Below are positions 193-21,527 of a DNA stretch of 24,461 nucleotides, piece after piece. The position numbers were made by a program, and so were the translations under genes. Within the stretch, counting starts at the first letter, position 1. Each line of letters starts with the position of its first letter. The notes under the pieces are model-generated. The model worked only from the letters and a program-made list of their open reading frames with translations. It was not told the origin of the DNA and made no database searches. Source of the DNA: a virus; the IMG/VR virus record IMGVR_UViG_3300017917_001197, positions 1-24,461 of that record. One strand, written 5' to 3'.

Positions 193-900
193 ATGTCAAA
201 AATTATAACATTTACAAATATGACAGATGCCAAATTAGAGCATCCAGAACCAGCTCATAAAAATATTCCGCAATGGTATAAAGATACCCCAACATACTTT
301 GGCGATGGCGAAAAAAAACCAATAAAACCAGATTTAACAACTTCAACAATTAAAAAATGTATACCAGTTTTTGACGCAATTACTGCTGGGTATATTATAA
401 AACTAGCAACAGATGTTTATGTAGAACCTAGAATTGAAGATGGTGAATCTCATCCATATTTTCAATGGCCTACATTAGACATAATAGCATTTCATCCAAT
501 AGAACAAGCAAAAATTCACCCATACAATACTGGACATATAGCATCTTATCCTAAATTTATTAATTTTTGGTCAATAAAAACAGCCCCAGGATATTCTTCT
601 CTATTTATAAATCCATTACATAGAGATTTGCCATTTGAAATATTACCAGGAATAGTGGACACTGATATATATACCGAACCAGTAAACTTCCCATTTGTTT
701 TAAAGGATATAAATTTTAAAGGAATTATACCAGCGGGAACACCAATTGCACAAGTAATTCCAATAAAAAGAGACTCTTGGAAAATGAAAACAGGAAATGA
801 TATAGATAGAATTAATGCTAGGTCAACTTTTACTAAAGTAAGATCAAAATTTTTTGAAGGATACAAGTCCTTCTATTGGAATAAAAAAGAATATAGGTAA
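193..900 (+). CDS. IPxWYK-family protein, copy 1 (unknown function)
   Basis: This 235-aa soluble protein has no signal peptide or membrane segment and belongs to a family with four copies in this window (also 903, 4189 and 8442). Shared blocks, in order, are an N-terminal IPQWYK, a Cys-Ile-Pro-x-x-Asp-Ala block followed by Ala-Gly-Tyr, PGYSSL, a GIVDTD motif, GTPIAQVIPIKR and a C-terminal W-x-KK-x-Y. The last third resembles a DUF6065-like protein at 9151 and, more distantly, the dUTPase-type beta fold. It differs from the other copies in having Asn rather than Thr-His before the Pro of the middle block (FINPLHRD). It is the first gene of a coupled cassette leading to a halogenase. The start is ATG 193, just downstream of a -10-like box. 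I do not know its function; a binding, carrier or partner role for the halogenase is only inference. Confidence 0.8.
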   Translation: MSKIITFTNMTDAKLEHPEPAHKNIPQWYKDTPTYFGDGEKKPIKPDLTTSTIKKCIPVFDAITAGYIIKLATDVYVEPRIEDGESHPYFQWPTLDIIAFHPIEQAKIHPYNTGHIASYPKFINFWSIKTAPGYSSLFINPLHRDLPFEILPGIVDTDIYTEPVNFPFVLKDINFKGIIPAGTPIAQVIPIKRDSWKMKTGNDIDRINARSTFTKVRSKFFEGYKSFYWNKKEYR

Positions 901-902
901 AA

Positions 903-1601
903 ATGAAAAAACAAAAAATTCAATTTACAATGAGCGGAGATTTTTTAGAACCAGTAAAATTAGCAAAAAATTTTATTCCACAATGGTATAAGGATATAAA
1001 ACCGTACGGTTATTCCAAGGTAGAGTTTGCTGGTCCTACTGGAAATGAATTAAAAAGAAATATTAAAAATTGCGTACCGTTTTTAGATGCTATGACATCT
1101 GGATATATGATAACATCAATAGTTGATATTTATGTTGAATCGGCTCCAGAAAATACAAAATTAGTAAAATGGACAAGCCCACTTGAGCCAGTATCAGATA
1201 GAGATGAAAATACCAACCCCTTGCCAATAGGAACAGAATTTGCAAAAAATCATTTTGTTTGGAGAAATAAAACTGTATTAAAAACTCCACCAGGGTATAG
1301 TTCAATATTAACACATCCCTTTAATAGATTTGATTTGCCATTTTTAACATTAAGCGGAATAGTAGACACGGACTCTATTATGCATAATGGCAACGTTCCA
1401 TTTTTTATTAAAAAGGATTTTGAAGGTGTTATACCAGCTGGAACTCCAATTATTCAAGTAATTCCATTTAAAAGGGAGCCGTGGGTATTAGAAGAAAACA
1501 AAGAATTATTAAAAGATAATGAAAGAATATCTTGGAACGTAACATCTTCATTTTTTAATTATTATAGAAATAATATGTGGCACAAGAAAGATTATCAGTG
1601 A
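903..1601 (+). CDS. IPxWYK-family protein, copy 2 (unknown function)
   Basis: This 232-aa protein is a clear paralogue of the gene just upstream, from which it is separated by 2 bases. It has the full motif set: IPQWYKD near residue 25, a Cys-Val-Pro-Phe-x-Asp-Ala block, PPGYSSIL, THPFNRFDLPF, GIVDTD, IPAGTPIIQVIPFKRE and a C-terminal W-H-KK-x-Y. The HP-x-x-R-x-DLPF block is shared with copies 3 and 4 and is the strongest common signature. No catalytic motif of a known enzyme is evident. Its stop codon overlaps the GTG start of the next gene (GTGA at 1598-1601), which indicates translational coupling. Function is unknown. The tandem position suggests gene duplication followed by divergence. 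Confidence 0.8.
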   Translation: MKKQKIQFTMSGDFLEPVKLAKNFIPQWYKDIKPYGYSKVEFAGPTGNELKRNIKNCVPFLDAMTSGYMITSIVDIYVESAPENTKLVKWTSPLEPVSDRDENTNPLPIGTEFAKNHFVWRNKTVLKTPPGYSSILTHPFNRFDLPFLTLSGIVDTDSIMHNGNVPFFIKKDFEGVIPAGTPIIQVIPFKREPWVLEENKELLKDNERISWNVTSSFFNYYRNNMWHKKDYQ

Positions 1602-2329
1602 TAAATAAGGAAAAGATAGTTTATTGGGCCCCAGCATTTGGATCTGAAACAGATAAAACAAACTGGAACATGTTATATTCAGAACCAGTTCAATTGTTTA
1701 AAGATTTAAATGAAAAAAGAGACAGTAATGTTTTATCTCAAGATAATTATTTAAGTTGCCCAGCATCAAATATCAGATTAAGAAATACTTATATTTTTAA
1801 AAATCAATTAAAAACCCATATTAAAATTGAAAACGGATTACCAGTTCCTCAATCAGAACATTATATTAAAACAGATATAATTAGAGGGCCATCTTTAAAA
1901 AATAATACAATGATCAACCTATCATTAAATTGGATATTTTTTACAGAGGAAGAGTCTTTACAAATTCACGCTAATCCCCCATTTTTTAGTAATGCAAATC
2001 ATCTTAGATATGGCGCTTTTTGTCCAGGTGGGTTTGATATTGGAAAATGGTTTAGACCAATAGCTACAGAAATTAATTTATGGGAAAATATAAATGAATT
2101 TGTTTTAGAAGAAGACGAACCAATTTTTTATATAGAGTTTTTAACAAACGAACCGATAGTATTGAAAAGATTTGTATATAATGATAGACTAAGATCACTA
2201 GCAGAAGCTTCTATGAAAAGTTCATCTATAATGGGAAAATGGCTTCCATTAAATAAAAGATATGAACATTTAAAAAAAACAAGAGGAAAAGAAATAATAT
2301 TAAAAGAGATAAAGGAAAATTTATTATGA
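1598..2329 (+). CDS. YWAP-family protein, copy 1 (unknown function)
   Basis: This 243-aa protein is paralogous to the one at 7720. Both begin with a short stretch leading to VYWAP, carry a Tyr-x-Ser-Cys block, a segment with EE(P/S)L followed by PP(F/Y)F, an aromatic block (FDI, then WFR), EPxxYxxF, and end in IILKEIKENL. I chose the GTG at 1598 rather than the in-frame GTG at 1577 because it overlaps the upstream stop as GTGA and gives an N-terminus matching the paralogue. It ends in an ATGA overlap with the halogenase gene. No signal peptide or membrane segment is seen. The order of its C-terminal blocks faintly recalls the IPxWYK proteins, so it may be a very divergent relative. Function is unknown. 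Confidence 0.75.
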   Translation: MINKEKIVYWAPAFGSETDKTNWNMLYSEPVQLFKDLNEKRDSNVLSQDNYLSCPASNIRLRNTYIFKNQLKTHIKIENGLPVPQSEHYIKTDIIRGPSLKNNTMINLSLNWIFFTEEESLQIHANPPFFSNANHLRYGAFCPGGFDIGKWFRPIATEINLWENINEFVLEEDEPIFYIEFLTNEPIVLKRFVYNDRLRSLAEASMKSSSIMGKWLPLNKRYEHLKKTRGKEIILKEIKENLL

Positions 2330-3915
2330 GCAAAAAAATTAATAAAGTTGTTATTGTTGGTGGAGGCTCTGCTGGTTGGATGAGCGCCGCATCTTTTATA
2401 AAAGCTTTTCCAAATAAAGAAATTATTGTTATAGAGTCTCCAGATTATGCAACAGTTGGCGTTGGAGAATCAACATTAGGTGGAATTAAAAGGTGGACAA
2501 ACTGGATTGGCATAGACGAAAAAGACTTTATGCCATATACAGACGCTGTATATAAGATGAGTATTAAATTTACGGATTTTTATGAAAAAGATGCTGGCGG
2601 ATTTCATTACCCATTTGGCCTGCCATTTTTAGATGAAACTATAAATGGTTTAAATGACTGGTATGTTAAAAAGGCAAAATTTCCAGAAACGCCAGTTTCT
2701 GACTACGCAAAATGTTTTTTCCCAGCACTAACATTAGTTGAGCAAAATAAAATTAGTTTTAATGAATCTGGAAGATTAAATAATTTTAATTTTAAAAAAG
2801 ATGTAGCATATCATTTCGACGCTACAAAATTTGGTTTATGGCTAAAAGAAAGATATTGCATTCCCCGTGGTGTTAAAGTTATATCTGATACTGTAATCGA
2901 TATTGTAAAAAATGAAGACGGAATTAAAGACTTAATTATTTCTTCTGGAGAAAAAATAAATGGAGATCTTTTTATAGATTGTACTGGTTGGAAGAGTCTT
3001 CTTTTAGCACAGGCCCTAGAAGAGCCATTTGATGATTTTTCTCATATGCTTCCAAATAATCGTGCATGGGCAACAAGAATACCATATACAGATATTGAAA
3101 AAGAAATGGAACCTTTTACAAATTGTACGGCTATATCAAATGGTTGGGTATGGAATATTCCTTCGTGGGAAAGAATAGGCACTGGATATGTATATAGTGA
3201 TAAGTATATATCTCCAGAAGACGCATTGCAAGAGTTTAAAGATTATTTAAAATCTGAAAAAATGACCGTATTTGATCCAAATAGGGATGTGGACTCATTT
3301 GAGTATAAAGATATAAAGTTTAGAGTTGGAATTCATAAAAGAACATGGGTAAAAAATGTTGTTGCAATTGGTCTTTCAGCTGGCTTTATAGAACCACTAG
3401 AAAGCAATGGGTTATTTACTGTCCATGAATTTTTAACAAAATTAATAAAGTCTTTAAATAGAGAAACAATAAGTCAGTGGGATAGAGATGCTTATAACAT
3501 GACAACAAGAAATCTTTATCTAACCTTTAAGGAATTTGTAGCAATGCATTATGCATTATCTAATAGAGATGATTCTGAGTATTGGAAAGATATTAATAAA
3601 AAAGAATTTCAACCAATGGTAGCAAATTGTACTCCGCATCAACATTTGGGTTTTGCCGAGCTTGCAGAAAGAAAAATTAATATTTCAAGATATGAGCCCA
3701 ATGCAGGAATCAACTGCATTGCAACTGGAATGAATTATTTTCCAGTAGATTCAAATTTAATAGAAGACTGGGCCTTTTTTGACAATATAGATTATTATGA
3801 ACAAACAAAATCAGTTTTTTATAAATGGGATGTTTTAAAATCAATATGGCAACAAGAAGCAGATACTTCTCCTACAATGTATCAATATTTAAAAGAAAAT
3901 ATTTATAATGATTAA
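2326..3915 (+). CDS. Flavin-dependent tryptophan-halogenase-family protein
   Basis: This 529-aa protein has the typical length and landmarks of flavin-dependent halogenases. An FAD-binding GGGSAGW motif lies at residues 11-18, the family-specific WVWNIP (WxWxIP) at 274-279 and EPLES near 356-360. Lys77 in the YKMSIKF segment corresponds to the catalytic lysine that forms the haloamine in PrnA (Lys79). Glu359 matches the conserved active-site glutamate region. The family uses FADH2, oxygen and halide to make HOX, which halogenates an electron-rich substrate. A flavin reductase is needed, none is visible here, and the host may supply it. A viral member, VirX1 from a cyanophage, is known to iodinate diverse substrates. 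The gene is coupled to its neighbours (ATGA at 2326, overlap at 3908). The natural substrate and halide cannot be read from the sequence. All key residues appear intact. Confidence 0.93.
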   Translation: MSKKINKVVIVGGGSAGWMSAASFIKAFPNKEIIVIESPDYATVGVGESTLGGIKRWTNWIGIDEKDFMPYTDAVYKMSIKFTDFYEKDAGGFHYPFGLPFLDETINGLNDWYVKKAKFPETPVSDYAKCFFPALTLVEQNKISFNESGRLNNFNFKKDVAYHFDATKFGLWLKERYCIPRGVKVISDTVIDIVKNEDGIKDLIISSGEKINGDLFIDCTGWKSLLLAQALEEPFDDFSHMLPNNRAWATRIPYTDIEKEMEPFTNCTAISNGWVWNIPSWERIGTGYVYSDKYISPEDALQEFKDYLKSEKMTVFDPNRDVDSFEYKDIKFRVGIHKRTWVKNVVAIGLSAGFIEPLESNGLFTVHEFLTKLIKSLNRETISQWDRDAYNMTTRNLYLTFKEFVAMHYALSNRDDSEYWKDINKKEFQPMVANCTPHQHLGFAELAERKINISRYEPNAGINCIATGMNYFPVDSNLIEDWAFFDNIDYYEQTKSVFYKWDVLKSIWQQEADTSPTMYQYLKENIYND

Positions 3916-4192
3916 AGCTAAAGAGATATTAGAAGTTTCTAAAAATCTTTTTAAAAAAGAGTATTGGAATAAAACAAATACCATAGAATTTTGGGCATTT
4001 TCTACCAAGTTAATTATTATATTCCCAGGCTTACTGTTTGGAATTCAAATTTGGTGGCTATATATATTTGCACTTTTATCAAGCCTAACATTGGTGTTAA
4101 CATCTACTATAAAAACTTTACCAACAATTATATACTTTAATATTGGATGGTCAATATTAGCATCAATAGCATTATTGAAATATTTTTTATGA
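3908..4192 (+). CDS. Small integral membrane protein (unknown function)
   Basis: This is a 94-aa protein with a Lys-rich N-terminus (about residues 1-25) and then two or three hydrophobic segments at roughly 31-48, 50-68 and 73-93. It starts inside the end of the halogenase gene (8-base overlap) and its stop overlaps the next gene as ATGA, so it is translated as part of the same coupled cassette. No signal peptidase site or holin-like dual start is evident. Its place directly after a halogenase suggests a membrane anchor or a transport or protection role, but this is inference. A holin is an alternative because holins are similarly small, although no endolysin is nearby. Confidence 0.7.
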   Translation: MIKAKEILEVSKNLFKKEYWNKTNTIEFWAFSTKLIIIFPGLLFGIQIWWLYIFALLSSLTLVLTSTIKTLPTIIYFNIGWSILASIALLKYFL

Positions 4193-4872
4193 AAAATATA
4201 ATTAAATTTTATCCAATAGATAAAAAGACATATGAAATAAAACCAGAACCAAAATCTTCTTCTATGTTCATTCCTCAATGGTATAAAAATTTTCCACATA
4301 GATCTAATAATGACGCAAGGCCAAACGAAAATCCAAAAGCATGCGTTCCATTTACAGATTCTTTAACTTCTGGATACATGATATTATCTTCTGCCGCAAT
4401 AGGTTGTTTTAATAATGAAGATGGTTCAAAATATATAGATTGGAAAACAAGTTGGCCAGTAGTAGATATTCAAAATAGTTCTACATATGATGGATATCCA
4501 ATTCCAGAGGGATACCATAATCAAATGTTTAGGTGGTTAAACCCATGGAATATAACTACGCCAAAAGGCTATAGCATAATGGTTACTCATCCACACCATA
4601 GGTTTGATCTTCCATTTTTAACATTGCCAGCCGTTATAGATACAGATACCCTACCAAACACTATAGTATTTCCGTTTTTAATAAAAAAGGACTTTGAGGG
4701 AATAATACCAGAATCTACCCCCATAGCTCAAATTTTGCCATTTAAAAGAGAGTCGTGGTTATCTAAAAAAGAACCATACAATTCGTATATAGAAAATGGA
4801 ACTGATATAATAAAGCAAGGGTACGTTAAGACTTACAAAAATAAGTTTTGGCATAAAAAAACATACCAATAA
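4189..4872 (+). CDS. IPxWYK-family protein, copy 3 (unknown function)
   Basis: This 227-aa paralogue of the proteins at 193, 903 and 8442 has the same ordered blocks: IPQWYK, a Cys-Val-Pro-Phe-x-Asp-Ser block followed by Ser-Gly-Tyr, PKGYSIMVTHP, HRFDLPFLTLP, VIDTD, STPIAQILPFKRESW and a C-terminal W-HKK-x-Y. The ATG at 4189 was preferred over the in-frame ATG at 4147. It overlaps the upstream stop as ATGA, and it gives a start (MKNIIKFYP) matching the paralogue at 8442 (MKKIKFIP). The usual Gly-Thr-Pro of the C-terminal block is Ser-Thr-Pro here. It is the last gene of cassette 1. Function is unknown. Confidence 0.8.
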   Translation: MKNIIKFYPIDKKTYEIKPEPKSSSMFIPQWYKNFPHRSNNDARPNENPKACVPFTDSLTSGYMILSSAAIGCFNNEDGSKYIDWKTSWPVVDIQNSSTYDGYPIPEGYHNQMFRWLNPWNITTPKGYSIMVTHPHHRFDLPFLTLPAVIDTDTLPNTIVFPFLIKKDFEGIIPESTPIAQILPFKRESWLSKKEPYNSYIENGTDIIKQGYVKTYKNKFWHKKTYQ

Positions 4873-4903: not shown

Positions 4904-4926
4904 TATTGAGTATTTGTGGAGGTAAA

Positions 4927-5433
4927 ATGGCTAGTAAAAATTTTAAAGTTAAAGAAAAAGTTGTTTTGAATGGTTTAACAAATACAACTGGCCCACTAAT
5001 TGCAACTACAAATGAGGTTGATTCTTTAACTCATTTAACTCCAGTATATGGTGGCACTGGAACACAGACAGCTCCAACTTCTGGACAGTTTTTATATAGC
5101 TCTAGCGGAACTTCATATGCGCCAACAACATTATCTTCAACAGTACCTTTATGGACAGCGGTTTCAGTAAATTCAAATATTACACTGGCAAAATGGAATA
5201 ACTATTTTGTGGATAGTTCATCTGCAAGAACTTTAACCCTTCCAGCTTCTCCAAGTACAGGAGATGAGATACACATATTTGATCAAACTGGAACAGCAGC
5301 AACAAATAAAATTACAATAAATTCAAATTCAAATAAAATAAATGGATCAGTTCAAAATTTAGAAATAGATGTAAATAATGCGGCGGTAGTATTAATTTAT
5401 ACTGGTTCATCTTATGGATGGAGAGTAGGATAA
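4927..5433 (+). CDS. Short tail-fibre / fibre-tip protein
   Basis: This 168-aa beta-rich protein has the phage fibre signature YGGTGTQTAPTSGQ near residues 39-52, a repeat-like unit common in distal fibre shafts. It ends in a Ser/Thr/Asn-rich beta segment with TGDEI, KITIN and YGWRVG, typical of fibre C-termini. It is soluble, with no signal peptide. The ATG at 4927 follows GGAGGT at 4918-4923 and a promoter at 4875-4903. Its stop overlaps the next ATG (TAATG at 5431-5435), so the two are co-translated. The role in host recognition is inferred from the motif and from neighbouring adhesins. Confidence 0.75.
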   Translation: MASKNFKVKEKVVLNGLTNTTGPLIATTNEVDSLTHLTPVYGGTGTQTAPTSGQFLYSSSGTSYAPTTLSSTVPLWTAVSVNSNITLAKWNNYFVDSSSARTLTLPASPSTGDEIHIFDQTGTAATNKITINSNSNKINGSVQNLEIDVNNAAVVLIYTGSSYGWRVG

Positions 5434-7307
5434 TGGCACTAAGTTATAATTCAATTTCAAGCGGTGGTGCAACTGGCGCAGATTTTACAATAAATGTAGG
5501 CACAAGCGGTTATACAAAATCAGATCTAGCTAAAAACTTTGGGGCAGGAAATTATATATGTACATCAACGCTTTCTGATTCAACCCTAGATATTTATTTG
5601 TTAAATGAAGACGGAACTGTTGCTGGATATGCTAATGCCGCTACTTCAACAACAACAATTTCTGCTTCAAAAGAATTTAGATATGTAGTAGTTTATGGCT
5701 CAACTTCAAATGATACTTTAACATTTCAATATAAAACCGTTGTTGCACCAACAGCAAATAGCACAGCAGACCTAGTTATTGGTCCTAGACTAATTTCAGT
5801 AGTAACCTCAGCTTTGCCAAATATAAATGATACTACAGTTGTTACTGGGCACAATTTTGCAACAGACGTATCAATTACATTTTCTTCTTCAACACCTGGA
5901 TATACAGATACACCAGCAAAATCAATTGTAAGATCTAGCTCAACATCTTTAATTATAACAAGACCAGATAATCTTTCTACTGCCTATTCTCCATACACTA
6001 TTACAGCTTTAAATCCTGGAACTGTGGCTCCAACATCATCAAATGTACACAAACTTACAAATGCTATAACAGCTGGATCGTCTCCTGTTTGGGTCACTTC
6101 TGCAACATTGCCTACATTTTCAAGAAACGTTTCGTATTCAACAACATTGTCTGCAACAGATGCTGATGGAGGATCTTCTGTTACATATTCTTATGTATCG
6201 GGATCTTTGCCTACAGGGATATCATTTAATGCAGCAACAGCAACAATAAGTGGAACTGCAACAACTGCATTAACTACTACTTATACAGTACGTGCAACAG
6301 ATTCAGGTGGAAACTATGTAGATAGAACATTTACTTTAACAAATGCCACACCAGTTTGGAGCACAACTTCACCACTTTCTACAGCAACAGTTGGATCAGC
6401 TTACTCTGTAACATTGAGCGCCCCAGATGATTCTGGAGTAACACCAACATTTACATTAATTAGTGGATCACTTCCTTCTGGATTGTCTTTATCTTCTGCA
6501 GGAGTTATATCTGGAACACCATCTTCAGCATGGGCAGAGGGATCAACAGCAACTATCAGAGCAACAGATGCTAACGGATACTATACGGATAGAGTTTTTG
6601 AAATACCATTTCCAAGAACAGCAACATTTACATCAAGTGGTAGTTGGACTGCTCCATCTGGTGTAACATCGGTATCTAATCTACTCGTTGTAGCTGGTGG
6701 TGGCGGAGCTGGAGGAATGGAAACCAACTGGGGTCCTGGAGCTGGAGGCGCTGGTGGACTATTACAGCCATCAAACGTAGCAGTAACTCCTGGCACAACA
6801 TATACAATTACAGTAGGTGGAAGACCTGGAAATAGTTCAGCGTTAGGATATACAGCAATAGCTGGTGGAAACGGAGCAAACGATGCACAATATTCAAGTG
6901 CACCATATCCAAATAGATTAGGTGGAAATGGTGGCTCTGGTGGTGGTGGCGGAGGAACAACTGGTTATGGTGGAAGCGGAACTTCTGGCCAAGGTCATGG
7001 AGGAGGATCAGCTGTAGGCTTTGGTGGCGGAGGTGGCGGCGGATCTTCTAGCGGAGGAGGCAGTGGAACTTCTAACTCAGGTGGCGGTTATGGTGGAGGA
7101 ACAACAAGTAATATCACTGGATCTTCTTACGAATACTCTAGAGGAGGCGGTGGCGGAACAGCTTACTACTATGGAACTCAATATGATAATCCACATTACA
7201 CAAGTTATGGTTGGGGTGGAACAAGAATGTACTCTGGCTCTGGAGGAACACATTTAGGAAATACCCAAGGTGGGCCAGGAATTGTTGTTATTAGGTATAT
7301 TAAATAA
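5433..7307 (+). CDS. Multidomain tail adhesin: Ig-like domains plus glycine-rich tip
   Basis: This 624-aa protein starts at ATG 5433, which overlaps the upstream stop, with GGAGAG at 5420-5425 as a ribosome site. It has an N-terminal beta domain (about 1-105), an IPT/TIG-like region (about 115-205), and two cadherin-like 'putative Ig' (He_PIG) repeats at about 217-308 and 310-395. These repeats are marked by SGSLPTGISF...ISGT and SGSLPSGLSL...ISGTP. The C-terminus (about 400-624) is glycine-rich, opening with TFTSSGSWTAPSGV and LLVVAGGGGAGG and closing with IVVIRYIK. That C-terminal type is found on phage receptor-binding proteins. It probably sits at a fibre tip and binds the host surface. 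A small partner-like protein follows immediately at 7319. Confidence 0.85.
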   Translation: MALSYNSISSGGATGADFTINVGTSGYTKSDLAKNFGAGNYICTSTLSDSTLDIYLLNEDGTVAGYANAATSTTTISASKEFRYVVVYGSTSNDTLTFQYKTVVAPTANSTADLVIGPRLISVVTSALPNINDTTVVTGHNFATDVSITFSSSTPGYTDTPAKSIVRSSSTSLIITRPDNLSTAYSPYTITALNPGTVAPTSSNVHKLTNAITAGSSPVWVTSATLPTFSRNVSYSTTLSATDADGGSSVTYSYVSGSLPTGISFNAATATISGTATTALTTTYTVRATDSGGNYVDRTFTLTNATPVWSTTSPLSTATVGSAYSVTLSAPDDSGVTPTFTLISGSLPSGLSLSSAGVISGTPSSAWAEGSTATIRATDANGYYTDRVFEIPFPRTATFTSSGSWTAPSGVTSVSNLLVVAGGGGAGGMETNWGPGAGGAGGLLQPSNVAVTPGTTYTITVGGRPGNSSALGYTAIAGGNGANDAQYSSAPYPNRLGGNGGSGGGGGGTTGYGGSGTSGQGHGGGSAVGFGGGGGGGSSSGGGSGTSNSGGGYGGGTTSNITGSSYEYSRGGGGGTAYYYGTQYDNPHYTSYGWGGTRMYSGSGGTHLGNTQGGPGIVVIRYIK

Positions 7308-7318
7308 TGGAGGATACA

Positions 7319-7678
7319 ATGTCTACTGAAAATTCAAAAACATATGCAGTAATTGACAATGGTTTAGTTGAAAATTTTATTATTGCGGACTCTTTAGATT
7401 TAGCTGAAGAAATTTCTGGCAAACAATGCGTTGAAGTGCCACTTGAAGTCTCGTCAACAAGAGAAATGAGTATTGGCATGGTATGGAATGGACAACATTT
7501 TGTAGCAAGAAAGCCAGCAGATTCATGGATATGGGAAGACTCTATTGGAAATTGGATTCCACCTATTCCAAGACCTTCTGATCATGAAACTATTGTTGAC
7601 GGAGAATTTATTCACTATATTTGGTTAGAATCTGAACAAAGATGGATTTCTAATAAAGAAGCAGCCTCAGCATCTTAA
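7319..7678 (+). CDS. Small fibre-associated protein with SWxW...PPIPxP motif, copy 1
   Basis: This 119-aa protein starts at ATG 7319, five bases after a clear GGAGG (7309-7313). The in-frame ATG at 7307 overlaps the upstream stop and would place that ribosome site inside the gene, so I consider it less likely. It shares with the protein at 12274 an N-terminal A-x-ID-x-N block and a C-terminal KPADSWIWEDS...NWIPPIPRP block. Proteins with this layout are common in aquatic phages beside tail-fibre genes, but their role is not established to my knowledge. Both copies adjoin glycine-rich or collagen-like adhesins, which suggests a fibre subunit, adaptor or chaperone. That is inference. Confidence 0.7.
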   Translation: MSTENSKTYAVIDNGLVENFIIADSLDLAEEISGKQCVEVPLEVSSTREMSIGMVWNGQHFVARKPADSWIWEDSIGNWIPPIPRPSDHETIVDGEFIHYIWLESEQRWISNKEAASAS

Positions 7679-7704: not shown

Positions 7705-7720
7705 TGATATAGTTATATCA
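7705..7720 (+). promoter_or_regulatory. Leaderless promoter of cassette 2 within an inverted repeat
   Basis: An extended -10 (TG at 7705-7706, then TATAGT at 7708-7713) lies 6 bases before the ATG at 7720, and that gene has no Shine-Dalgarno site. The -10 also lies inside a perfect inverted repeat, TGATATA-GT-TATATCA (7705-7720), reaching the A of the start codon. The repeat could be an operator or a chance result of AT-rich sequence. No good -35 is visible. Confidence 0.5.
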
Positions 7721-8442
7721 TGGATAATGAAATTATAGTTTATTGGGCTCCCTCAGCATATTCACATTTACAGGGGACATTTGCATTATTAAACTTAAAA
7801 CCAAAACCATTAATAAATTATATGGTTAAAAATAAAAAAAATGATTCTTCTGCAGAAAATTTATATCAATCATGTACTGCTTTTAGAGAAGAGTTTTCAA
7901 ATACATTTTATATTGAATACCCAGTAACTACAAAAGTTTATTTTGATGAAAATGGTAAAGTTATAAGGAATGATGAAGTGTCTGATTGGTACTTAGATAG
8001 AAGATCATCATTTGAAAATGCAAATGCGGTTGACTTAGATGTTGGAGTAATATTTTTTTGCGAAGAGCCTTTAAAAATGAAAATTACTCCACCATATTTT
8101 CATAAAACAAAAACATCAGAAACTGCATTTTTTACCGCAGGCGCTTACGACATATCTTCTTGGTTTAGGGCAATAATATTTACACATCAAACTTTTCCAA
8201 ACTTTAATTATATGGAGACAGTTTCTGGAGAACCAGCGATGTACGTTTCTTTTGAAACAGATAAAAAAATAATTTTTAAACAATTTGTTTTAACAGATAG
8301 TTTATTTAAATATGGTAAAAATTGTGTAGATTTTAAAAAAATAAAACCATTTTTATCTTTTAAAGAAATGTATGAGCGATTTAATAGTGGCAATTTAAAT
8401 AAAATTATTTTAAAAGAAATTAAAGAAAATTTGGTAGAATAA
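7720..8442 (+). CDS. YWAP-family protein, copy 2 (unknown function)
   Basis: This 240-aa paralogue of the protein at 1598 shares IVYWAP at residues 6-11, a Tyr-x-Ser-Cys block, FCEEPLKMKITPPYF, a GAYDISSWFRAI block, EPAMYVSF and the C-terminal NKIILKEIKENL. It opens cassette 2, probably from a leaderless promoter. Its stop overlaps the ATG of the next gene (TAATG), which encodes an IPxWYK protein. Cassette 1 likewise puts a YWAP gene next to an IPxWYK gene, though in the opposite order, so the two families appear to work together. No enzyme motif, signal peptide or membrane segment is seen. Function is unknown. Confidence 0.75.
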   Translation: MDNEIIVYWAPSAYSHLQGTFALLNLKPKPLINYMVKNKKNDSSAENLYQSCTAFREEFSNTFYIEYPVTTKVYFDENGKVIRNDEVSDWYLDRRSSFENANAVDLDVGVIFFCEEPLKMKITPPYFHKTKTSETAFFTAGAYDISSWFRAIIFTHQTFPNFNYMETVSGEPAMYVSFETDKKIIFKQFVLTDSLFKYGKNCVDFKKIKPFLSFKEMYERFNSGNLNKIILKEIKENLVE

Positions 8443-9158
8443 TGAAAAAAATTAAATTTATTCCAGTTAGCTTAACAAATGATCCAATAGAACATCCTGT
8501 AGAAAAATTTTTAGAACCACCATCATCTACTAAAAAGCACATACCAGATTGGTATAAAAAGGGAGAATCTTTTACTGGTGGTAAACCATTTGTAGAAAAT
8601 TATTCTTCTAATGCAGACATGAAAACTTGTATGCCATTTTTAGATGCTTTTACAACTGGATATGTTGTTACATTATGGACTGATATTACTGTTGAAAAAG
8701 ATGAAAATGGTCAAACGTTAAAATGGTTAAGAGTTCCAAATCCAATTGGAAGAAGACCAGAAGGTTTTGGGAAAAATTTAAGTGTTCCTTTTGGACATTC
8801 TCCAATTCAATACTCATGGAATATTCCATGGGCTTTTAAAACACCAAAAGAATATAGTTTGTTGTTTACCCATCCGTTAAATAGAAGTGATTTGCCATTT
8901 ATAAGCTTAAGTGGAATAGTTGATACAGATAAATTTTTTTCTGGAGGACAATATCCATTTTTCTTAAGAGAAGATTTTGAAGGCATTATTCCAGTCGGAA
9001 CCCCACTAATTCAAATTATTCCAATAAAAAGAGATAACTGGAAATCTGAGGTTGACGCATCTTTACGAGATGAAGCACAAAAAAATGGATGGGTTACCAG
9101 AAGTTTTGTTTCTGGGTATTATAAAAAAACTAGATGGCAGAAAAAATTGTATGAATGA
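8442..9158 (+). CDS. IPxWYK-family protein, copy 4 (unknown function)
   Basis: This 238-aa protein contains IPDWYKK near residue 35, a Cys-Met-Pro-Phe-x-Asp-Ala block followed by Thr-Gly-Tyr, PKEYSLLFTHP, a Leu-Asn-Arg-Ser-Asp-Leu-Pro-Phe block, GIVDTD, FEGIIPVGTPLIQIIPIKRD and a C-terminal W-Q-KK-x-Y. It is the only member of the family in cassette 2 and is coupled on both sides: TAATG at its start, and overlap of its end with the ATG at 9151. The next gene encodes a DUF6065-like protein with the same C-terminal layout. This supports a distant relationship between the two families. Function is unknown. Confidence 0.8.
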   Translation: MKKIKFIPVSLTNDPIEHPVEKFLEPPSSTKKHIPDWYKKGESFTGGKPFVENYSSNADMKTCMPFLDAFTTGYVVTLWTDITVEKDENGQTLKWLRVPNPIGRRPEGFGKNLSVPFGHSPIQYSWNIPWAFKTPKEYSLLFTHPLNRSDLPFISLSGIVDTDKFFSGGQYPFFLREDFEGIIPVGTPLIQIIPIKRDNWKSEVDASLRDEAQKNGWVTRSFVSGYYKKTRWQKKLYE

Positions 9159-9903
9159 TATTAAAGATTATAATGTTCCAGAAAATAAAATTTTAGTAAT
9201 CCCATTGTATGATTTTGATATAAAAGAATTAAATACTTTTTTTAGAACATTAAAAGATAATAAAAAAAGAGAATGGTTTAAACCAAATTTTTATAGATGT
9301 CTTCCACTAACAATAGGAAACCAGTACGGATTTGGAGTGTATGCACCCTACTCATTTGGATTTAATTGGAATGGCGGAACAGAGCCAGAAGATATTACTT
9401 TCTTTTTTAATGAAGAAGAAATGTCTAAATTTAATAAAACCTCACATTTCAAGGTTGAATCCCATTTTGGAGAAGGCATTATTACTCTTTCTATGCCAGT
9501 TTTATTAAGAAGTCCAAATGGTGTAAATTTAATGACAATTGCTCCACCAAATTCACCATTGCCAAACCTTAGTCCAATGACAGGGGTTGTTGAGGCTGAT
9601 AATTTAAGAACGCTTTTTACAATTAATTTAAAAATAGATATACCAGATATAAGTGTTCATATTCCATCTGGAACACCGTTAGCTGGAATACTACCAGTAC
9701 CGAGATATTTTTGCGACTCATTCGAAATATTAGAATCTCAAAATTTTTTACCAGAAAATATAATTAATCAAGAAAAAAAATTACAAGAAGATTTTGCAAG
9801 GTTCCGTGCAGAAAAAAATAAAAGCAATCAACCATTTGATAGACTTTATATGAAAGGGTTGGATTTTTATGGAAAAGAATTTGGAGATCATCAAAGACCA
9901 TGA
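9151..9903 (+). CDS. DUF6065-like protein
   Basis: This 250-aa protein starts at ATG 9151, overlapping the upstream stop by 8 bases. The longer reading from 9052 would run through the conserved C-terminus of the upstream gene in another frame and is rejected. It contains FYRCLPLTIGNQYGFGV followed by FNWNGG, the hallmark of the DUF6065 family as I remember it. It then has NLMTIAPPNSPLP, TGVVEAD and IPSGTPLAGILPVPRYF. The last block parallels GIVDTD...IPAGTPI.QVIPFKR of the IPxWYK proteins. The family has no established function that I know of. It ends in an ATGA overlap with a glycosyltransferase gene, so the two products are probably made together. Confidence 0.75.
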   Translation: MNDIKDYNVPENKILVIPLYDFDIKELNTFFRTLKDNKKREWFKPNFYRCLPLTIGNQYGFGVYAPYSFGFNWNGGTEPEDITFFFNEEEMSKFNKTSHFKVESHFGEGIITLSMPVLLRSPNGVNLMTIAPPNSPLPNLSPMTGVVEADNLRTLFTINLKIDIPDISVHIPSGTPLAGILPVPRYFCDSFEILESQNFLPENIINQEKKLQEDFARFRAEKNKSNQPFDRLYMKGLDFYGKEFGDHQRP

Positions 9904-10958
9904 TATTTCATGTAATAAATTTACCTCACACCCAAACAACAAAAGAATTTGTTAATTGCGCCTATACTGAAAAAGTCAGGCGTTTTTGCAACATGATGAA
10001 ATCTTTAGGCCATACAGTTTATTTATATGCTGGAGATAAAAATGAAGCAGATGTAGACGAACTCATTACCTGTATTACAGAAGAAGAAAGACTAGAAAGT
10101 TTGGGCGGAAAACATTACGTAGAAGGTTCATTTGACTGCAGTCTTCCACACTGGCAAAAATTTTTAACAAATGCAATTGAAGCAATTCATCAAAGAATTG
10201 GACAAAAAGACTTTATTTGTATAATTGGCGGAACAGCACAAAAACCAATTGCAGATGCTTTTCCAAATCATATGTCAGTTGAGTATGGAATTGGGTATGG
10301 CGGAACATTTTCTAGATATCGTGTATTTGAATCATATGCATGGATGCATAGTATGTATGGAGGATGGACAAATCCAACATCTGTAAATGGTAATTTTTTT
10401 GATGCTGTAATTAATGGATATTTAGAACCTGAAATGTTTCCACTTCAAACGAAAAAAGAAGATTATTATTTATATGTTGGGAGAATGATTGATCGTAAAG
10501 GCGTAGATATTGCTTCTGAAGTTTGTAAAGAACTTGGTGTTAAATTAATTATGGCTGGTCCAGGAAATGAAATTCCATCTTATGGAGAATATATTGGGCC
10601 AATAGGACCAGAAGAAAGAGCAAAATTAATGGGCGGAGCAATTGCCACATTTGCGCCTACTAAGTATATTGAGCCATTTGGTAATGTAGTTATAGAAGCG
10701 CAGTCATGTGGAACTCCCACAATTACTACTGATTGGGGAGCTTTTACAGAAACTAATATTAATGGGCTTACAGGATATAGATGCCGCACATTAGATGAAT
10801 TTTGTAAGGCGGCAGAAAATGTAAAAATGCTTGACCCTGAAACTATACATAAGAAAGCAATTGCGCTATACTCTGTAGATGTTATTAGGTATGAGTACGA
10901 TAAGTATTTTCGCCGACTTTTAACCTTATGGGATAAGGGTTGGTATCAAAGATCTTAA
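9900..10958 (+). CDS. GT-B glycosyltransferase, group 1 (GT4-like)
   Basis: This 352-aa protein is about the usual length for a GT-B enzyme. The N-terminal half begins with a beta strand (IFHVINLPH) and a helix leading to GHTVYLYAG. The C-terminal nucleotide-sugar half has LYVGRMIDRKGVD (about residues 191-203, with Arg195 and Lys200 in the donor-phosphate position), LIMAGPG, and EPFGNVVIEAQSCGTP. The last contains the EX7E motif (Glu258, Glu266). Such enzymes transfer a sugar from a nucleotide donor in the cytoplasm. It is coupled to the DUF6065-like gene and lies just before a collagen-like fibre gene, so glycosylation of the fibre, or of host or phage glycans, is plausible. Arginine is often CGT/CGC here, unlike the AGA-rich neighbours, which could mean a different origin. 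Confidence 0.9.
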   Translation: MIFHVINLPHTQTTKEFVNCAYTEKVRRFCNMMKSLGHTVYLYAGDKNEADVDELITCITEEERLESLGGKHYVEGSFDCSLPHWQKFLTNAIEAIHQRIGQKDFICIIGGTAQKPIADAFPNHMSVEYGIGYGGTFSRYRVFESYAWMHSMYGGWTNPTSVNGNFFDAVINGYLEPEMFPLQTKKEDYYLYVGRMIDRKGVDIASEVCKELGVKLIMAGPGNEIPSYGEYIGPIGPEERAKLMGGAIATFAPTKYIEPFGNVVIEAQSCGTPTITTDWGAFTETNINGLTGYRCRTLDEFCKAAENVKMLDPETIHKKAIALYSVDVIRYEYDKYFRRLLTLWDKGWYQRS

Positions 10959-10984: not shown

Positions 10985-12265
10985 ATGGGAACAACAGGCA
11001 AGGGATTTAGATACCCTCAATATTCAGACACTCCAGATGTGCCAAGAGATTTATCTTATTTGGCAGATGATGTTGACACATATTTAAGTTCTCATCCAGG
11101 TCCAACAGGCCCAACGGGATCAACTGGACCTCAAGGAGTAACTGGTCCATCTGGTGCAACGGGCGCAACTGGTGCAACGGGCCCAACAGGTGCAACTGGA
11201 GCAACAGGTCCAACAGGTGCAACTGGAGCAACAGGTACACAGGGAGTAACTGGTGCAACGGGTCCAGTAGGTGCAACTGGATCTCAAGGAAGCGGAGTTG
11301 TAATTTTAGGAACTTATGCAACCTTAAATGCTTTACAAACGGCTCATCCAACAGGTTCTGCTGGCGACGGCTATACTATTGGATCAGATTTATATGTATG
11401 GTCTACAAATACTTCTAGTTGGATAAGTGTTGGACAAATAGTTGGACCAAGTGGTGCATCTGGAGCAACTGGACCAACTGGAGCAACAGGACCTGTAGGC
11501 GCAACAGGACCAACTGGACCACAAGGCGCAACAGGCGCAACAGGTTTAACTGGACCAACTGGATCTAAAGCTACATTTTCAATTTCTTCAAGTACGCCTC
11601 CATCAAACCCAGTAGAAGGCCAAGCCTGGTTTAATTCATCAAATGGTAGTGAATATATATATTATAATACATCATGGATTGAAGTTGGAAGTTCATTAGC
11701 TGGATCTACAGGAGCAACAGGACCTCAAGGATCTACTGGACCAACTGGAGCAACAGGACCTGTAGGCGCAACAGGACCAACTGGACCACAAGGCGCAACA
11801 GGCGCAACAGGTTTAACTGGACCAACTGGAGCAACTGGTGCAACAGGAGTAATTGGAACTAATACTGCGGTAACTGGATTGCTAGAAACAGTAAATGTAG
11901 TATCATCTTCAACTAGTGGTACTGTAAACATGGATGTTGTTACATCATCAGTTTGGTATTATACATCTGCATCATCAAGTGCTTTTACACTAAACATAAG
12001 AGGAAATTCTTCAACCACTTTAAATTCATTGCTATCAAATAATCAATCAATAACAATAGCATTTTTAAATACAACTGGTGCATCTACAGCATCTATTCCA
12101 ACCTTAAATATTGATGGTACTGCTTCTGGTATATCTACAAAATGGATATTGGGATCAGCCCCAACTGTAGCAAATTCATCATCAATAGATGCATACACAT
12201 ATACTATTATTAAAACAGCAAGTTCCACATACACAGTGCTTGCTTCACAAACAAAGTATGCGTGA
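10985..12265 (+). CDS. Collagen-like tail fibre protein
   Basis: This 426-aa protein has a short N-terminal domain ([28 protein letters not shown]), three Gly-X-Y collagen-like stretches rich in GATGPTG, two small globular inserts and a C-terminal beta domain of about 120 residues. The first insert is [25 protein letters not shown]...LYVW; the second is [22 protein letters not shown]...W. This matches phage fibres in which collagen-like segments form trimeric shafts and the ends attach to the virion and bind the host. The second and third collagen stretches carry an identical 96-base DNA repeat. The gene probably has its own leaderless promoter. No signal peptide is present, as expected for a virion protein. 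Confidence 0.9.
11468..11563 (+). repeat. 96-base perfect direct repeat, copy 1
   Basis: By eye these 96 bases (32 codons) are identical to 11735-11830. Both lie in frame in the collagen-like fibre gene and encode the same Gly-X-Y segment. The offset of 267 bases equals 89 codons, so recombination between the copies would keep the reading frame and remove or duplicate the globular insert between them. Confidence 0.9.
11735..11830 (+). repeat. 96-base perfect direct repeat, copy 2
   Basis: This is the second copy of the repeat at 11468-11563, in the third collagen-like stretch of the fibre gene. Identity at synonymous positions indicates a recent duplication or gene conversion, because nearby Gly-X-Y codons vary freely. 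Confidence 0.9.
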
Positions 12266-12273
12266 GGATAAAA

Positions 12274-12615
12274 ATGTCTCATTGGGCAGAAATAGATGAA
12301 AATAATATTGTAAAAAGAGTATTAGTTGGCGACAATGAAGATCCAAATGGCGATGAAGGATATCAGTGGTTAATAGATAATTTAGGTGGTAATTGGATTA
12401 AGACATCTTATAATAACAATATAAGAAAAAATTTTGCTGGGATAGGATTTTTTTATGATATAAATAGAGATGCTTTTATTCCACCAAAACCTCATGAATC
12501 TTGGATCTTTAATGAAGATACTTGTAATTGGGATCCACCAATACCTTTTCCAAATAACGGAACTCAGCTAACATTCTGGAATGAAAATAATTTAAATTGG
12601 GAGACACCTGGATAA
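12274..12615 (+). CDS. Small fibre-associated protein with SWxF...PPIPxP motif, copy 2
   Basis: This 113-aa protein starts at ATG 12274 after GAGG (12264-12267). The upstream in-frame ATG at 12262 lies within the preceding gene's end and leaves no room for the ribosome site. It has the pattern SHWAEIDENNIVKRVLVGDN, a central GGNWIKTSYNNNIRKNFAGIG, then IPPKPHESWIFNEDTCNWD and PPIPFP. This pattern is frequent in fibre regions of aquatic phages, including cyanophages. It is related to the protein at 7319. The ATG of the next gene overlaps its stop (TAATG), so it is co-translated with a glycine-rich adhesin. Its role as a virion component or fibre accessory is inferred. Confidence 0.8.
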   Translation: MSHWAEIDENNIVKRVLVGDNEDPNGDEGYQWLIDNLGGNWIKTSYNNNIRKNFAGIGFFYDINRDAFIPPKPHESWIFNEDTCNWDPPIPFPNNGTQLTFWNENNLNWETPG

Positions 12616-13535
12616 TGCCTCTTATAGAATCTTTGGGTAATAACTCTGCAAAAGGTTATGGTTATAGCAAAAATGCTTTTATGATTATAAGCGGTGGAAC
12701 ACTTTATTCAGACTCTACATATTATTATAGAAAATTTTCTGCTAATGGAAATTTTTCAGTAATCAATGGTACTTTATCTGCTGATATTTTAATTGTTGCT
12801 GGCGGTGGCGGCGGCGGAGTTGGTTTTGGTGGCGGTGGGGGTGCTGGAGGATTAAAACTTTTAACTTCTCAATCTTTATCTGGAACAACATCAGTTGTAA
12901 TAGGCGCAGGCGGCGCATCAATAAATAATACAAATAATTTAGCAAACCCAGGAAATACTTCATCATTTGGAGCAACATCTTCAACTGGCGGTGGAGGTGG
13001 AGCAACAGCAGCAAGTGCTGGTGAAGCTGGTCAATCTGGAGGTTCTGGAGGAGGAGGAGCTGCCTCTTCAACAAATGGATATAGTAATGGCGGTGCTGGT
13101 TCATCTGGTCAAGGAAATACTGGAGGTCGTGGATATAGAAATGGGTCTGCACCAACAACTTTAGGAATAGGTTCTGGTGGAGGTGGAGGTGCTGGAACAA
13201 CTGGTGGAGACGGCCCAACTGGCTCTGGAGGAACTGGTTCTGGATCGTATTCTTCTTGGGCATCTGCAACATCCACTGGTACAGATAATTATTTTGCAGG
13301 TGGTGGAGGAGGATCTGGAGGATATTCAACATCTGGTTCTGCAATTACTACAACTACTGGAGGATTAGGGGGCGGAGGAAATTCAGATTATAATAGCGGA
13401 TTTGGAAACTCTGGAGTACAAAATACTGGAGGCGGCGGAGCTGGTGTTGCATATTATACTGGAACTTCTGGCAGCGGTGGTTCTGGAGTAGTAATTATTA
13501 GATATTTAAAAACAGTAACAGCTCTTAATCAATGA
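12615..13535 (+). CDS. Glycine-rich tail adhesin
   Basis: This 306-aa protein starts at ATG 12615, overlapping the upstream stop, with GGAG around 12599-12602. After about 60 residues of beta-type sequence it reaches [22 protein letters not shown] and continues as a glycine/serine/threonine-rich domain to the end, closing in VVIIRYLK. The start of this domain and its terminus are the same as in the adhesin at 5433 and the fragment at 1. Glycine-rich tips of this kind are known in phage receptor-binding proteins, where variable loops determine host range. That role is inferred here. Confidence 0.85.
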
Positions 13536-13539
13536 TTAA

Positions 13540-13548
13540 TGATATAAT
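13540..13548 (+). promoter_or_regulatory. Possible extended -10 before the second collagen-like gene
   Basis: TGA followed by TATAAT (13543-13548) forms an extended -10. A start near 13555 would truncate the Shine-Dalgarno site (GGAG at 13552-13555) of the gene at 13560, so either the promoter is weak or both routes are used. The AT-rich context makes a chance match quite possible. Confidence 0.3.
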
Positions 13549-13559
13549 AAAGGAGAATT

Positions 13560-13976
13560 ATGCCACTAACATTTCCATCTAATCCAACCATAGGAGATAC
13601 GTATTCATCTTCTGGGAATACATGGTCGTGGGACGGAACATCTTGGAACCTAGTTAGAGTTCCAGCAGGACCAACAGGCGCAACAGGACCAGCAGGACCG
13701 ACAGGTGCAACTGGGCCAGCAGGATCAACAGGGCCAGCAGGATCAACAGGTGCAACAGGACCAGCAGGAGGACCAACAGGTGCAACTGGGCCTTCTGGTG
13801 CAACTGGACCAGCGGGACCAACAGGTGCAACAGGACCAACGGGAGCTTCTGGGCCATCTGGACCAACTTACTCAAATGGTTCCACTGGAGCAGTTAGTGC
13901 AAATAAAATTTTTTATAACACAACTGGGGTTGCACCGACTGGAACTGCAGCAGGCGATTTATATATACAGTATTAG
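13560..13976 (+). CDS. Short collagen-like fibre protein
   Basis: This 138-aa protein starts at ATG 13560 with an AAGGAG ribosome site. The N-terminus reads [19 protein letters not shown] followed by WDGTSW, a module common at the start of aquatic phage fibre proteins. About 60 residues of Gly-X-Y ([10 protein letters not shown]) follow, with one break of register at GPAGGPTG. The C-terminus ([16 protein letters not shown]) is typical of fibre ends. It is probably a trimeric shaft or connector that works with the larger fibres. The next gene follows after 8 bases with its own GGAG site. Confidence 0.85.
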
Positions 13977-13984
13977 GAGAAATT

Positions 13985-14944
13985 ATGACAATAAAATTAT
14001 ATAACTCCTCTGTATGGAATACACAAAAAAAATTACAGATATTTAACGGCTCTTCTTGGCAAGATGCAAAAAAAGCATGGACATATCAAAGTGGTTCATG
14101 GCAAATTATTTATCCAGAGTATCCTCAAAATACAACAGCTCCTTCAGTAAGCGGTTTAACCGTACAAGGAAATACTCTTTCAACAACAAATGGTTCATGG
14201 AATTCAGATTCCGCATATGCGCCAACATCATATTCATATCAATGGACAAGGGCTGGTTCAGATATATCTAGTGCAACAAGCTCTACTTATACTACAACCT
14301 CATCAGATACTGGAAATGCAATAGCTTGTAAAGTTACTGCTACTAATGGAAGAGGTAATACAACAGTATCAAGTAGTAATTCTATAACAGTTACTGCGCC
14401 TATGCCAAGTCCACCACCAAGTTTAACATTATCCAACGGAACCCCAACACCTGGAGCTCCAGCATCAGCAACAACTACCTATAGTGGCGGAACAACAGCA
14501 TCTTTTTCATTTACCGCTGGAAGTGGGTCTATTACAAAATATATGGTTTTAACATCAGATAATAGAGATATAATTTCAAATGTGTATCCGACATCACCAA
14601 CAACTGTTACAATTACAAAGGGTAGTGATACTGGTCCAAGAACTTTATACGTTGGGGTGTCTGCGTTATATAATACAACAACATTATCTATGAGCTGGAC
14701 ATCTGGAGCAAACGCTACATCTTATGATATTTATGTAAATAGCGTATATGTTGGAAATACTTCATCAACCTCTTATTCTTATTCTGCTGGGTCAATACAA
14801 TGGCCATCAACATCATCTTTTACTGTAAATGTAAGATCTAAAAATTCTACAGGTACAGAATCAACTGGGGTAACCAGTACAATAAGTATTGGTGGAACAA
14901 ATAGTTCTATAACTCCAGGACAACAAAACAATATAACTTGGTAA
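13985..14944 (+). CDS. Ig/fibronectin-like fibre or tail-decoration protein
   Basis: This 319-aa protein starts at ATG 13985 with GGAG nine bases upstream. The N-terminal 40 residues contain repeated aromatic units (SSVWNTQKKLQIFNGSSWQDAKKAW), a pattern seen in virion-attachment segments. An Ig-like domain follows (about 50-135, with NGSWN, YSYQW, CKVTATNGRG), then a Ser/Thr/Pro-rich linker. A fibronectin type III-like domain (about 235-310, with SMSWTSGANATSYDIYVN and FTVNVRSKN) ends the protein. Such domains decorate phage virions and bind carbohydrate or host surfaces. The assignment rests on visible domain patterns only. Confidence 0.75.
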   Translation: MTIKLYNSSVWNTQKKLQIFNGSSWQDAKKAWTYQSGSWQIIYPEYPQNTTAPSVSGLTVQGNTLSTTNGSWNSDSAYAPTSYSYQWTRAGSDISSATSSTYTTTSSDTGNAIACKVTATNGRGNTTVSSSNSITVTAPMPSPPPSLTLSNGTPTPGAPASATTTYSGGTTASFSFTAGSGSITKYMVLTSDNRDIISNVYPTSPTTVTITKGSDTGPRTLYVGVSALYNTTTLSMSWTSGANATSYDIYVNSVYVGNTSSTSYSYSAGSIQWPSTSSFTVNVRSKNSTGTESTGVTSTISIGGTNSSITPGQQNNITW

Positions 14945-14953
14945 GGAGAAAAA

Positions 14954-15151
14954 ATGGCAAACTATACAGTGTTAACTGAAGATGAAAAAGCTCAAATTAG
15001 AATTGCAACAATTCGTAATTTTGAATATCAAATGTATTCATTTGAATTACAAAAACAAGCAGAGCTTTCAAAAACTAATCCAAACATGGACCATGTAGCA
15101 TTTTTAAATACACAAATTTTAGGGTTTGAAGAACAAATAGCATCACTATAA
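14954..15151 (+). CDS. Small helical protein (unknown function)
   Basis: This 65-aa protein starts at ATG 14954 after a strong AAGGAG site. It looks almost entirely helical, with heptad-like spacing in IATIRNFEYQMYSFELQKQAEL and a second helix near FLNTQILGFEEQIASL, so a short coiled coil is plausible. It lies between two likely fibre proteins and is followed by the LamG-like gene after one base. It could be a small structural or assembly partner. I do not recognise the family. Confidence 0.65.
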   Translation: MANYTVLTEDEKAQIRIATIRNFEYQMYSFELQKQAELSKTNPNMDHVAFLNTQILGFEEQIASL

Positions 15152-15152
15152 A

Positions 15153-17090: not shown

Positions 17091-17432
17091 ATGGATATAA
17101 ATAAGATAAATAGTAAAGTTCTTGAAGAAGAGACAAGGCTTGGAATTTATGTGTGGGAAATGCCAGATGGTCGTTGGATAGGCGATGATGATGGCAACTT
17201 TTTATCCATAACAGCAACAAAGGGTAATAGATCAAGAATTGCTGCCTTGGCAGATGCTGTAAGGGGTTATGGTATTTATGAAGGTCAGCCAAAATTTTTA
17301 TCAGGCCGCAGAAAAATTGATGATGAAGAATTTGAATATCAGCAACAGAGATTGAATTGGGGATTAGTCCCAGATCCGCTAGATATTGGAAACTATAAAG
17401 ATGAGATGAAGAATCTCAGGGGTGGTAAATAA
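17091..17432 (+). CDS. Unknown protein preceding the portal gene
   Basis: This 113-aa hydrophilic protein contains GIYVWEMPDGRWIGDDDGNFLSI, followed by a basic/helical segment (RSRIAALADAVRGYG) and a polar C-terminus ending in LRGGK. Its stop overlaps the portal start (TAATG at 17430-17434), so it is made with the portal. Its place and coupling suggest a head-assembly or DNA-packaging accessory, but I do not recognise a family. It lacks the Walker and nuclease motifs of a large terminase and the clear DNA-binding domain of a small one. The start is ATG 17091, just behind a leaderless-type promoter. Confidence 0.75.
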   Translation: MDINKINSKVLEEETRLGIYVWEMPDGRWIGDDDGNFLSITATKGNRSRIAALADAVRGYGIYEGQPKFLSGRRKIDDEEFEYQQQRLNWGLVPDPLDIGNYKDEMKNLRGGK

Positions 17433-19021: not shown

Positions 19022-19026
19022 TTATT

Positions 19027-19050
19027 AGGCAACTAGTTATTTGCCTTTTT
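19027..19050 (+). terminator. Intrinsic terminator after the portal gene
   Basis: AGGCAA (19027-19032) pairs with TTGCCT (19041-19046) around an 8-base loop, followed by TTTT. The stem is short but perfect and sits 6 bases after the portal stop. Its 3' arm also serves as the best -35 box of the next promoter. Confidence 0.6.
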
Positions 19051-19069: not shown

Positions 19070-19076
19070 AAAGCAT

Positions 19077-21511: not shown

Positions 21512-21527
21512 CATTTAAATTTAACAA

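Follow-up and report, generated by a model that had tools for sequence, protein, structure and literature searches.

A VirX1-type phage halogenase encoded beside a small putative membrane protein as a candidate functional unit

Introduction

Flavin-dependent halogenases (FDHs) use FADH2, O2 and halide to form hypohalite inside the enzyme, where a lysine relays it to an aromatic ring. For VirX1, the halogenase of cyanophage Syn10, the role of this lysine (K79) has been described (PMC8407142). Earlier papers counted prnA among the accessory genes of cyanophages (PMC2984593, PMC3037559), a 2023 review counted 20 carriers among 153 cyanophages (PMC10452541), and a small-molecule role has been the usual suggestion for the cyanophage enzyme (PMC2984593, PMC9964418). 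Phage halogenases are widespread, and the papers covered here name a natural substrate for none of them.

In this study, we analysed a stretch of viral DNA of 24,461 nucleotides (hereafter the window; positions 1 to 24,461 of IMG/VR record IMGVR_UViG_3300017917_001197) that encodes an FDH. A preliminary description of the window had called phage halogenases rare. This is contradicted by the review count given above, by 65 isolate phage records that matched FDH in tblastn searches (Synechococcus and Prochlorococcus phages for the most part, with pelagiphages and a few further phages), and by at least 597 IMG/VR stretches carrying FDH relatives in a profile-guided, confirmed scan. Viral FDHs of this kind are thus familiar from many aquatic phages, and the novelty lies in the pairing with a small putative membrane protein without a known family, which we term TM94. 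The literature and family databases that we covered held no description of such an FDH-membrane-protein arrangement, although one may exist elsewhere.

Identity of the halogenase

We found that the open reading frame at 2326-3915 matched Pfam Trp_halogenase PF04820 (3.6e-102; 343 bits against a curated cut-off of 21) and phrog_2928, a tryptophan halogenase family (7.8e-150). Its closest relative in the PDB was VirX1 (6QGM, 1.4e-107), the precedent already named in the preliminary description, which aligned over residues 4-528, including the C-terminal region. With PrnA, RebH and Thal, the phmmer alignment broke off at about query residue 421-424; the region after about residue 425 aligned with VirX1 but with none of these three. 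The gene and its motifs are as follows.

2326..3915, plus strand: flavin-dependent halogenase (FDH), VirX1-like, 529 aa (Pfam, PHROG and VirX1 matches, motifs, selection)
2359..2376, plus strand: FAD-binding GxGxxG motif, residues 12-17 (G12-G17), read as GGGSAG (direct reading; conserved in the alignment)
2554..2556, plus strand: catalytic lysine K77, which corresponds to K79 in both PrnA and VirX1 (invariant in 16 phage FDHs)
3145..3162, plus strand: WxWxIP signature, W274-V-W-N-I-P279 (direct reading and alignment)
3391..3405, plus strand: EPLES, residues 356-360 (E356-S360), with the catalytic glutamate E359 (direct reading and alignment)

The catalytic lysine and glutamate of PrnA (K79 and E346) thus have their counterparts in K77 and E359. 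Both residues, together with W274, W276 and P279, were invariant in an alignment of 16 phage FDHs, and no catalytic residue had been lost. Pairwise dN/dS among the window gene and its relatives was about 0.04-0.22 where dS was estimable, pointing to purifying selection on the FDH. The preliminary description had reported an intact FDH at exactly these gene coordinates, with all four motifs and likely activity. Each of these points was borne out, the last as a probability: the motifs, the selection and the full-length homology to VirX1 show an intact FDH of VirX1 type that is probably active.

Gene row around the halogenase

The FDH gene lies in a tight same-strand row (window 193-4872) consisting of two phrog_7084 genes, one phrog_17480 gene, the FDH gene, the TM94 gene and a further phrog_7084 gene. 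This row and the genes downstream of it are listed below.

193..900, plus strand: phrog_7084 protein (4e-51)
903..1601, plus strand: phrog_7084 protein (4.3e-40)
1577..2329, plus strand: phrog_17480 protein with a predicted dUTPase-like fold, sharing 4 nt (ATGA) with the FDH start (phrog_17480, 1e-18)
3908..4192, plus strand: TM94, 94 aa, three hydrophobic segments, family-less (ORF, hydropathy, 59 loci)
4189..4872, plus strand: phrog_7084 protein (DUF6065-like), overlapping the TM94 stop by 4 nt (phrog_7084, 3e-36)
4906..7678, plus strand: fibre and glycine-rich adhesin genes with a fibre-associated small gene (He_PIG, Gly_rich_2)
7720..8442, plus strand: phrog_17480 protein, model pLDDT 89.9, predicted dUTPase-like fold (PHROG match, model)
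8442..9158, plus strand: phrog_7084 protein, model pLDDT 90.5, predicted dUTPase-like fold, best Z 9.5 (PHROG match, model)
9130..9903, plus strand: DUF6065 protein, above the Pfam cut-off (PF19541, 3.6e-35)
9900..10958, plus strand: glycosyltransferase (group 1), kept near FDH-TM94 in L003 and L054 (Pfam and PHROG)
10985..17027, plus strand: second fibre block with collagen-like, glycine-rich and LamG-domain proteins (domain matches)

The dUTPase-like fold of the protein at 1577-2329 is taken from the model of its paralogue at 7720-8442. Promoter and terminator signals around the cassette were no more frequent than in shuffled sequence, so the operon structure is read from the gene overlaps only. 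The cassette had been described as bracketed by adhesins, which is correct on the downstream side, where fibre genes begin at 4906; upstream lie the two phrog_7084 genes and the phrog_17480 gene, with no adhesin among them. In the relatives L003 and L005, fibre genes flank the FDH on both sides.

TM94 is repeatedly paired with divergent halogenases

In the window, the final 8 nt of the FDH gene also belong to the TM94 reading frame, which the preliminary description had not mentioned. By hydropathy, the predicted protein has a polar N-terminal stretch followed by three hydrophobic segments, and four of its tryptophans (W20, W49, W50 and W81) are invariant. Searches against Pfam, PHROG and PDB sequences returned nothing useful, and weak matches to haemagglutinin stalk, Asp5 and GPCR models were taken as chance.

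Using conserved peptides, we located TM94 at 59 loci in IMG/VR, a search that under-samples divergent relatives because it relied on those peptides; the isolate phages searched gave no match. TM94 lay directly 3' of the FDH on the same strand at 42 of the 59 loci, and the two genes overlapped by 14 nt at 28 of these. One gene separated the pair at 4 loci, an opposite-strand FDH lay close by at 6, and no FDH was present within four genes at the remaining 7, one of which has TM94 first on a contig fragment. Three loci with TM94 lacking an adjacent FDH (L101, L104 and L119) have several phrog_7084 and phrog_17480 genes nearby, and in G004, the record that contains L104, FDH and TM94 are about 30 kb apart.

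The TM94 copies were 60-83% identical to that of the window, and their partner FDHs ranged from 74% down to 26% identity to the window FDH. When TM94 linkage was placed as a label on the FDH tree, it changed 10 times among the viral rows compared with a shuffled mean of 21, indicating a clustered linkage with many gains, losses or exchanges. These identities and label changes together suggest that the pairing arose or was exchanged repeatedly. The dN/dS of TM94 was 0.03-0.15 where dS was estimable, again pointing to purifying selection. The repeated pairing of TM94 with divergent FDHs is the strongest evidence here, at the level of sequence, for joint action. Most viral FDHs lack TM94, so the enzyme has no general need for it; many of these FDHs adjoin 2-oxoglutarate (2OG)-Fe oxygenases.

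We consider it somewhat probable that the catalytically intact VirX1-type FDH forms a working unit with TM94, a small putative membrane protein whose gene lies immediately 3'. Reduced flavin, O2 and halide would react in the FDH, and the hypohalite would be passed by K77 to an aromatic substrate. We searched 15 FDH phage records, several of them possibly incomplete, for Flavin_Reduct (PF01613) and found none, while 13 of 14 control genomes have such a gene; the host therefore probably supplies FADH2. TM94 may tether the reaction to the membrane, supply halide or substrate, or itself be the acceptor. Because TM94 pairs with the FDH, the membrane would be the most likely setting, and an aromatic group associated with the membrane or envelope would be a likelier target than free tryptophan. 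The FDH-TM94 pair would be a mobile accessory (moron-like) module, which in the phage lineage of the window sits in the fibre cassette. A more specific version is that the three-segment TM94 is the halogenated substrate or a membrane coupler, which would let phages modify the host envelope or a membrane protein during infection; this is tentative, and we rate its chance as somewhat below even.

Neighbourhoods of viral halogenases and the fibre hypothesis

To describe the neighbourhoods, FDH-fetched loci were clustered at 80% identity into 61 clusters, 53-55 of them with enough neighbours, and the background consisted of 846-852 other genes from six large FDH-bearing phage records, processed alike. 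2OG-Fe(II) oxygenases occurred within three genes of 71% of viral FDHs (background 8%), and dUTPase-fold families within three genes of 25% (background 2%). At least two fibre-like genes occurred within five genes at 51% of 53 distinct loci compared with 19% in the background, the former figure being approximate because fibre-like genes were called mainly by composition. Binomial P values for such comparisons are indicative only, since the background records carry these cassettes and the phages are related. The oxygenase linkage is far stronger than the fibre linkage, which is real but moderate.

The TM94-linked FDHs differ from this overall pattern. A 2OG gene lay within five genes in only 1 of 23 TM94-linked FDH groups, and 11 of the 23 had no fibre-like gene within that distance. 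FDH-TM94 lies beside fibres in L003, L005 and L108. In L144 it follows a queuine tRNA-ribosyltransferase gene and a ribonucleotide reductase gene and faces an integrase gene; in G003, whose portal resembles that of the window, the FDH (at 91 kb) lies far from the head genes (portal near 36 kb). Given the varied contexts in L144 and G003, the fibre position is one of several for FDH-TM94. In T4-like cyanophages, fibre genes and a small gene are followed by the FDH and then by rows of 2OG-Fe oxygenase genes. The row downstream of the S-CREM1 FDH (L008:9625-15115) has eight genes annotated as 2OG-Fe(II) oxygenase and one as JmjC, and other T4-like cyanophages have comparable rows after the FDH.

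These data bear on the main rival to a joint action of FDH and TM94, namely that the substrate of the FDH is Trp or Tyr in tail-fibre or adhesin proteins and that the enzyme belongs to a fibre-modifying set with 2OG-Fe(II) hydroxylases and a glycosyltransferase. It agrees with the fibre linkage across loci, with the gene order of the T4-like cyanophages, and with the window itself, where fibre genes lie downstream of the FDH and genes for a glycosyltransferase and a collagen-like fibre are close by; FDHs that act on Trp in peptides or proteins also exist, such as ChlH, MibH and SrpI (PMC12518702). However, nearly half of the TM94-linked groups have no fibre-like gene nearby, the FDH of S-B64 lies among replication genes, that of L144 adjoins ribonucleotide reductase and integrase genes, and no single fibre protein recurs as a partner across loci. 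The small Trp-containing gene that precedes many FDHs was set aside as a candidate substrate, because such genes generally follow phage fibre genes. We regard modification of the fibres as less likely for the window than joint action with TM94, though as a serious rival, and the 2OG-linked cyanophage FDHs give it more support than FDH-TM94 does. The suggestion in the preliminary description that a fibre residue could be the target accordingly keeps the fibre linkage on its side but is not favoured, given the stronger oxygenase linkage and the TM94 groups that lie away from fibres.

Relationships of the halogenase and further alternatives

In the FDH tree, one branch (SH-aLRT 99) unites the window FDH, VirX1 and 88 other rows. 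Its only cellular member is L157, the other 27 sampled cellular FDHs being excluded, and more distant viral FDHs fall outside it; deep placements are tentative because the tree was built quickly and has some long branches. The L157 gene (L157:8995-10596, on an 84-kb contig of a Myxococcota/Deltaproteobacteria MAG) encodes an FDH 56% identical to that of the window and nested among viral FDHs. Its neighbours look chromosomal, and a transfer from phage to bacterium is possible. TM94, phrog_7084 and phrog_17480 were absent from all 80 cellular FDH loci, among which there were only 2 2OG-Fe seed matches.

Halogenation of a small molecule, either free tryptophan or a host metabolite such as an antibiotic (as PrnA acts for pyrrolnitrin), would fit the annotation of the family as tryptophan halogenase and the wide range of small molecules that VirX1 accepts in vitro (PMC8407142). 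Other pathway genes are absent nearby, however, PrnA, RebH and Thal do not align in their C-terminal region, and viral FDHs cluster apart from the sampled cellular biosynthetic FDHs in the tree. We judge this reading improbable, and free tryptophan in particular appears disfavoured because similarity to the three enzymes stops near residue 425.

Slightly less probable still is that FDH and TM94 are unrelated accessory genes which merely share common insertion hot spots. Both genes do occur in variable cassettes, and some TM94 genes have no FDH nearby, but most pairs keep their gene order and overlapping reading frames, and TM94 is repeatedly paired with FDHs only 26-31% identical to that of the window. 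Finally, a flavoprotein that no longer halogenates is very improbable in view of the fully conserved catalytic residues, the purifying selection and the full-length relationship to the active VirX1.

dUTPase-fold families

Besides the FDH and TM94, the window encodes five proteins of phrog_7084/DUF6065 type and two of phrog_17480, that is, seven divergent paralogues from two related families (hhalign probability 95 between the profiles). AlphaFold models of both families (mean pLDDT about 90) had dUTPases as their top Foldseek and VIA matches, the best structural match having Z 9.5 over 126 aligned residues at rmsd 3.1. On these models, both families are assigned a dUTPase-like fold. Like dUTPases, most phrog_7084 members have a GIVDTD...GTPxxQ stretch that resembles motifs III and IV (D161 in 49 of 62 members, Q191 in 48 of 62). 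Unlike dUTPases, each family has an invariant Cys (62 of 62 aligned phrog_7084 and 22 of 22 aligned phrog_17480 members). TPxGYS stands where dUTPases have a PRS-type motif II, and the Pfam dUTPase family was matched by only 1 of 62 phrog_7084 members (E 0.014).

In several T4-like cyanophages, phrog_7084 genes directly follow the FDH. Homologues about 28-34% identical were present in L015 and 49 other records, nearly all of them haloarchaeal tailed viruses. The gene of Halorubrum phage HF2 (L015, 6857-7741) lies near a ribonucleotide reductase gene and that of cyanophage S-RIM4 a few genes from ribonucleotide reductase genes, neighbours that hint at a nucleotide-related role of phrog_7084 outside FDH cassettes. 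In Caulobacterales and their relatives, DUF6065 occurred as single genes, with no FDH within the 3.7-kb loci examined.

Phage background

The portal of the window is 57% identical to that of Streptomyces phage Comrade, and the head protease is 45-46% identical to those of Streptomyces phages such as Francob and Sham, the latter classed in Stanwilliamsviridae. The head is therefore not cyanophage-like, as the preliminary description had noted; its further label of PBSX-like fits only loosely, since the closest relatives are Streptomyces phages and the XkdF (Peptidase_S78_2) match in the head genes is below its curated cut-off. The head module (17091-24460) is closest to Streptomyces phages, yet the G+C content of the stretch is a mere 33-43% or so, which makes a low-G+C host possible.

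Comparison with known halogenases

Two FDH arrangements can be distinguished among phages: a large one with TM94 as the constant partner gene, and a second, nearly separate one marked by 2OG-Fe oxygenases. With these partners named, the substrate can be approached through defined pairwise tests. The dUTPase-fold families occur with both arrangements and form a second set of candidate partners.

VirX1 of cyanophage Syn10 resembles the window FDH in its full-length homology, catalytic motifs and phage origin, and its gene comes after a row of structural-region genes. It differs in sharing only about 39% identity with the window FDH; Syn10 has no TM94, its head genes are unrelated, and downstream of its FDH comes a row of small genes that includes several 2OG-Fe oxygenases. 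The prnA genes of cyanophages S-CREM1, Sf-CH11, S-RIM44 and S-WAM1 encode enzymes 35-52% identical to the window FDH, often lie beside fibres and in several cases have a phrog_7084 neighbour. Unlike the window gene, they are accompanied by 2OG-Fe oxygenases, and TM94 had no match in isolate phages.

PrnA, RebH and Thal have the FAD domain, WxWxIP and the catalytic Lys and Glu in common with the window FDH, but their sequence similarity to it ends near residue 425, and they belong with the cellular biosynthetic enzymes. ChlH, MibH and SrpI set a precedent as FDHs whose target is a Trp within a ribosomal peptide or protein. They belong to RiPP clusters with a precursor peptide, whereas none was seen at the window, unless TM94 is the substrate. 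TM94 adjoins the FDH as a RiPP precursor would and has four invariant Trp, but it is a conserved membrane-like protein.
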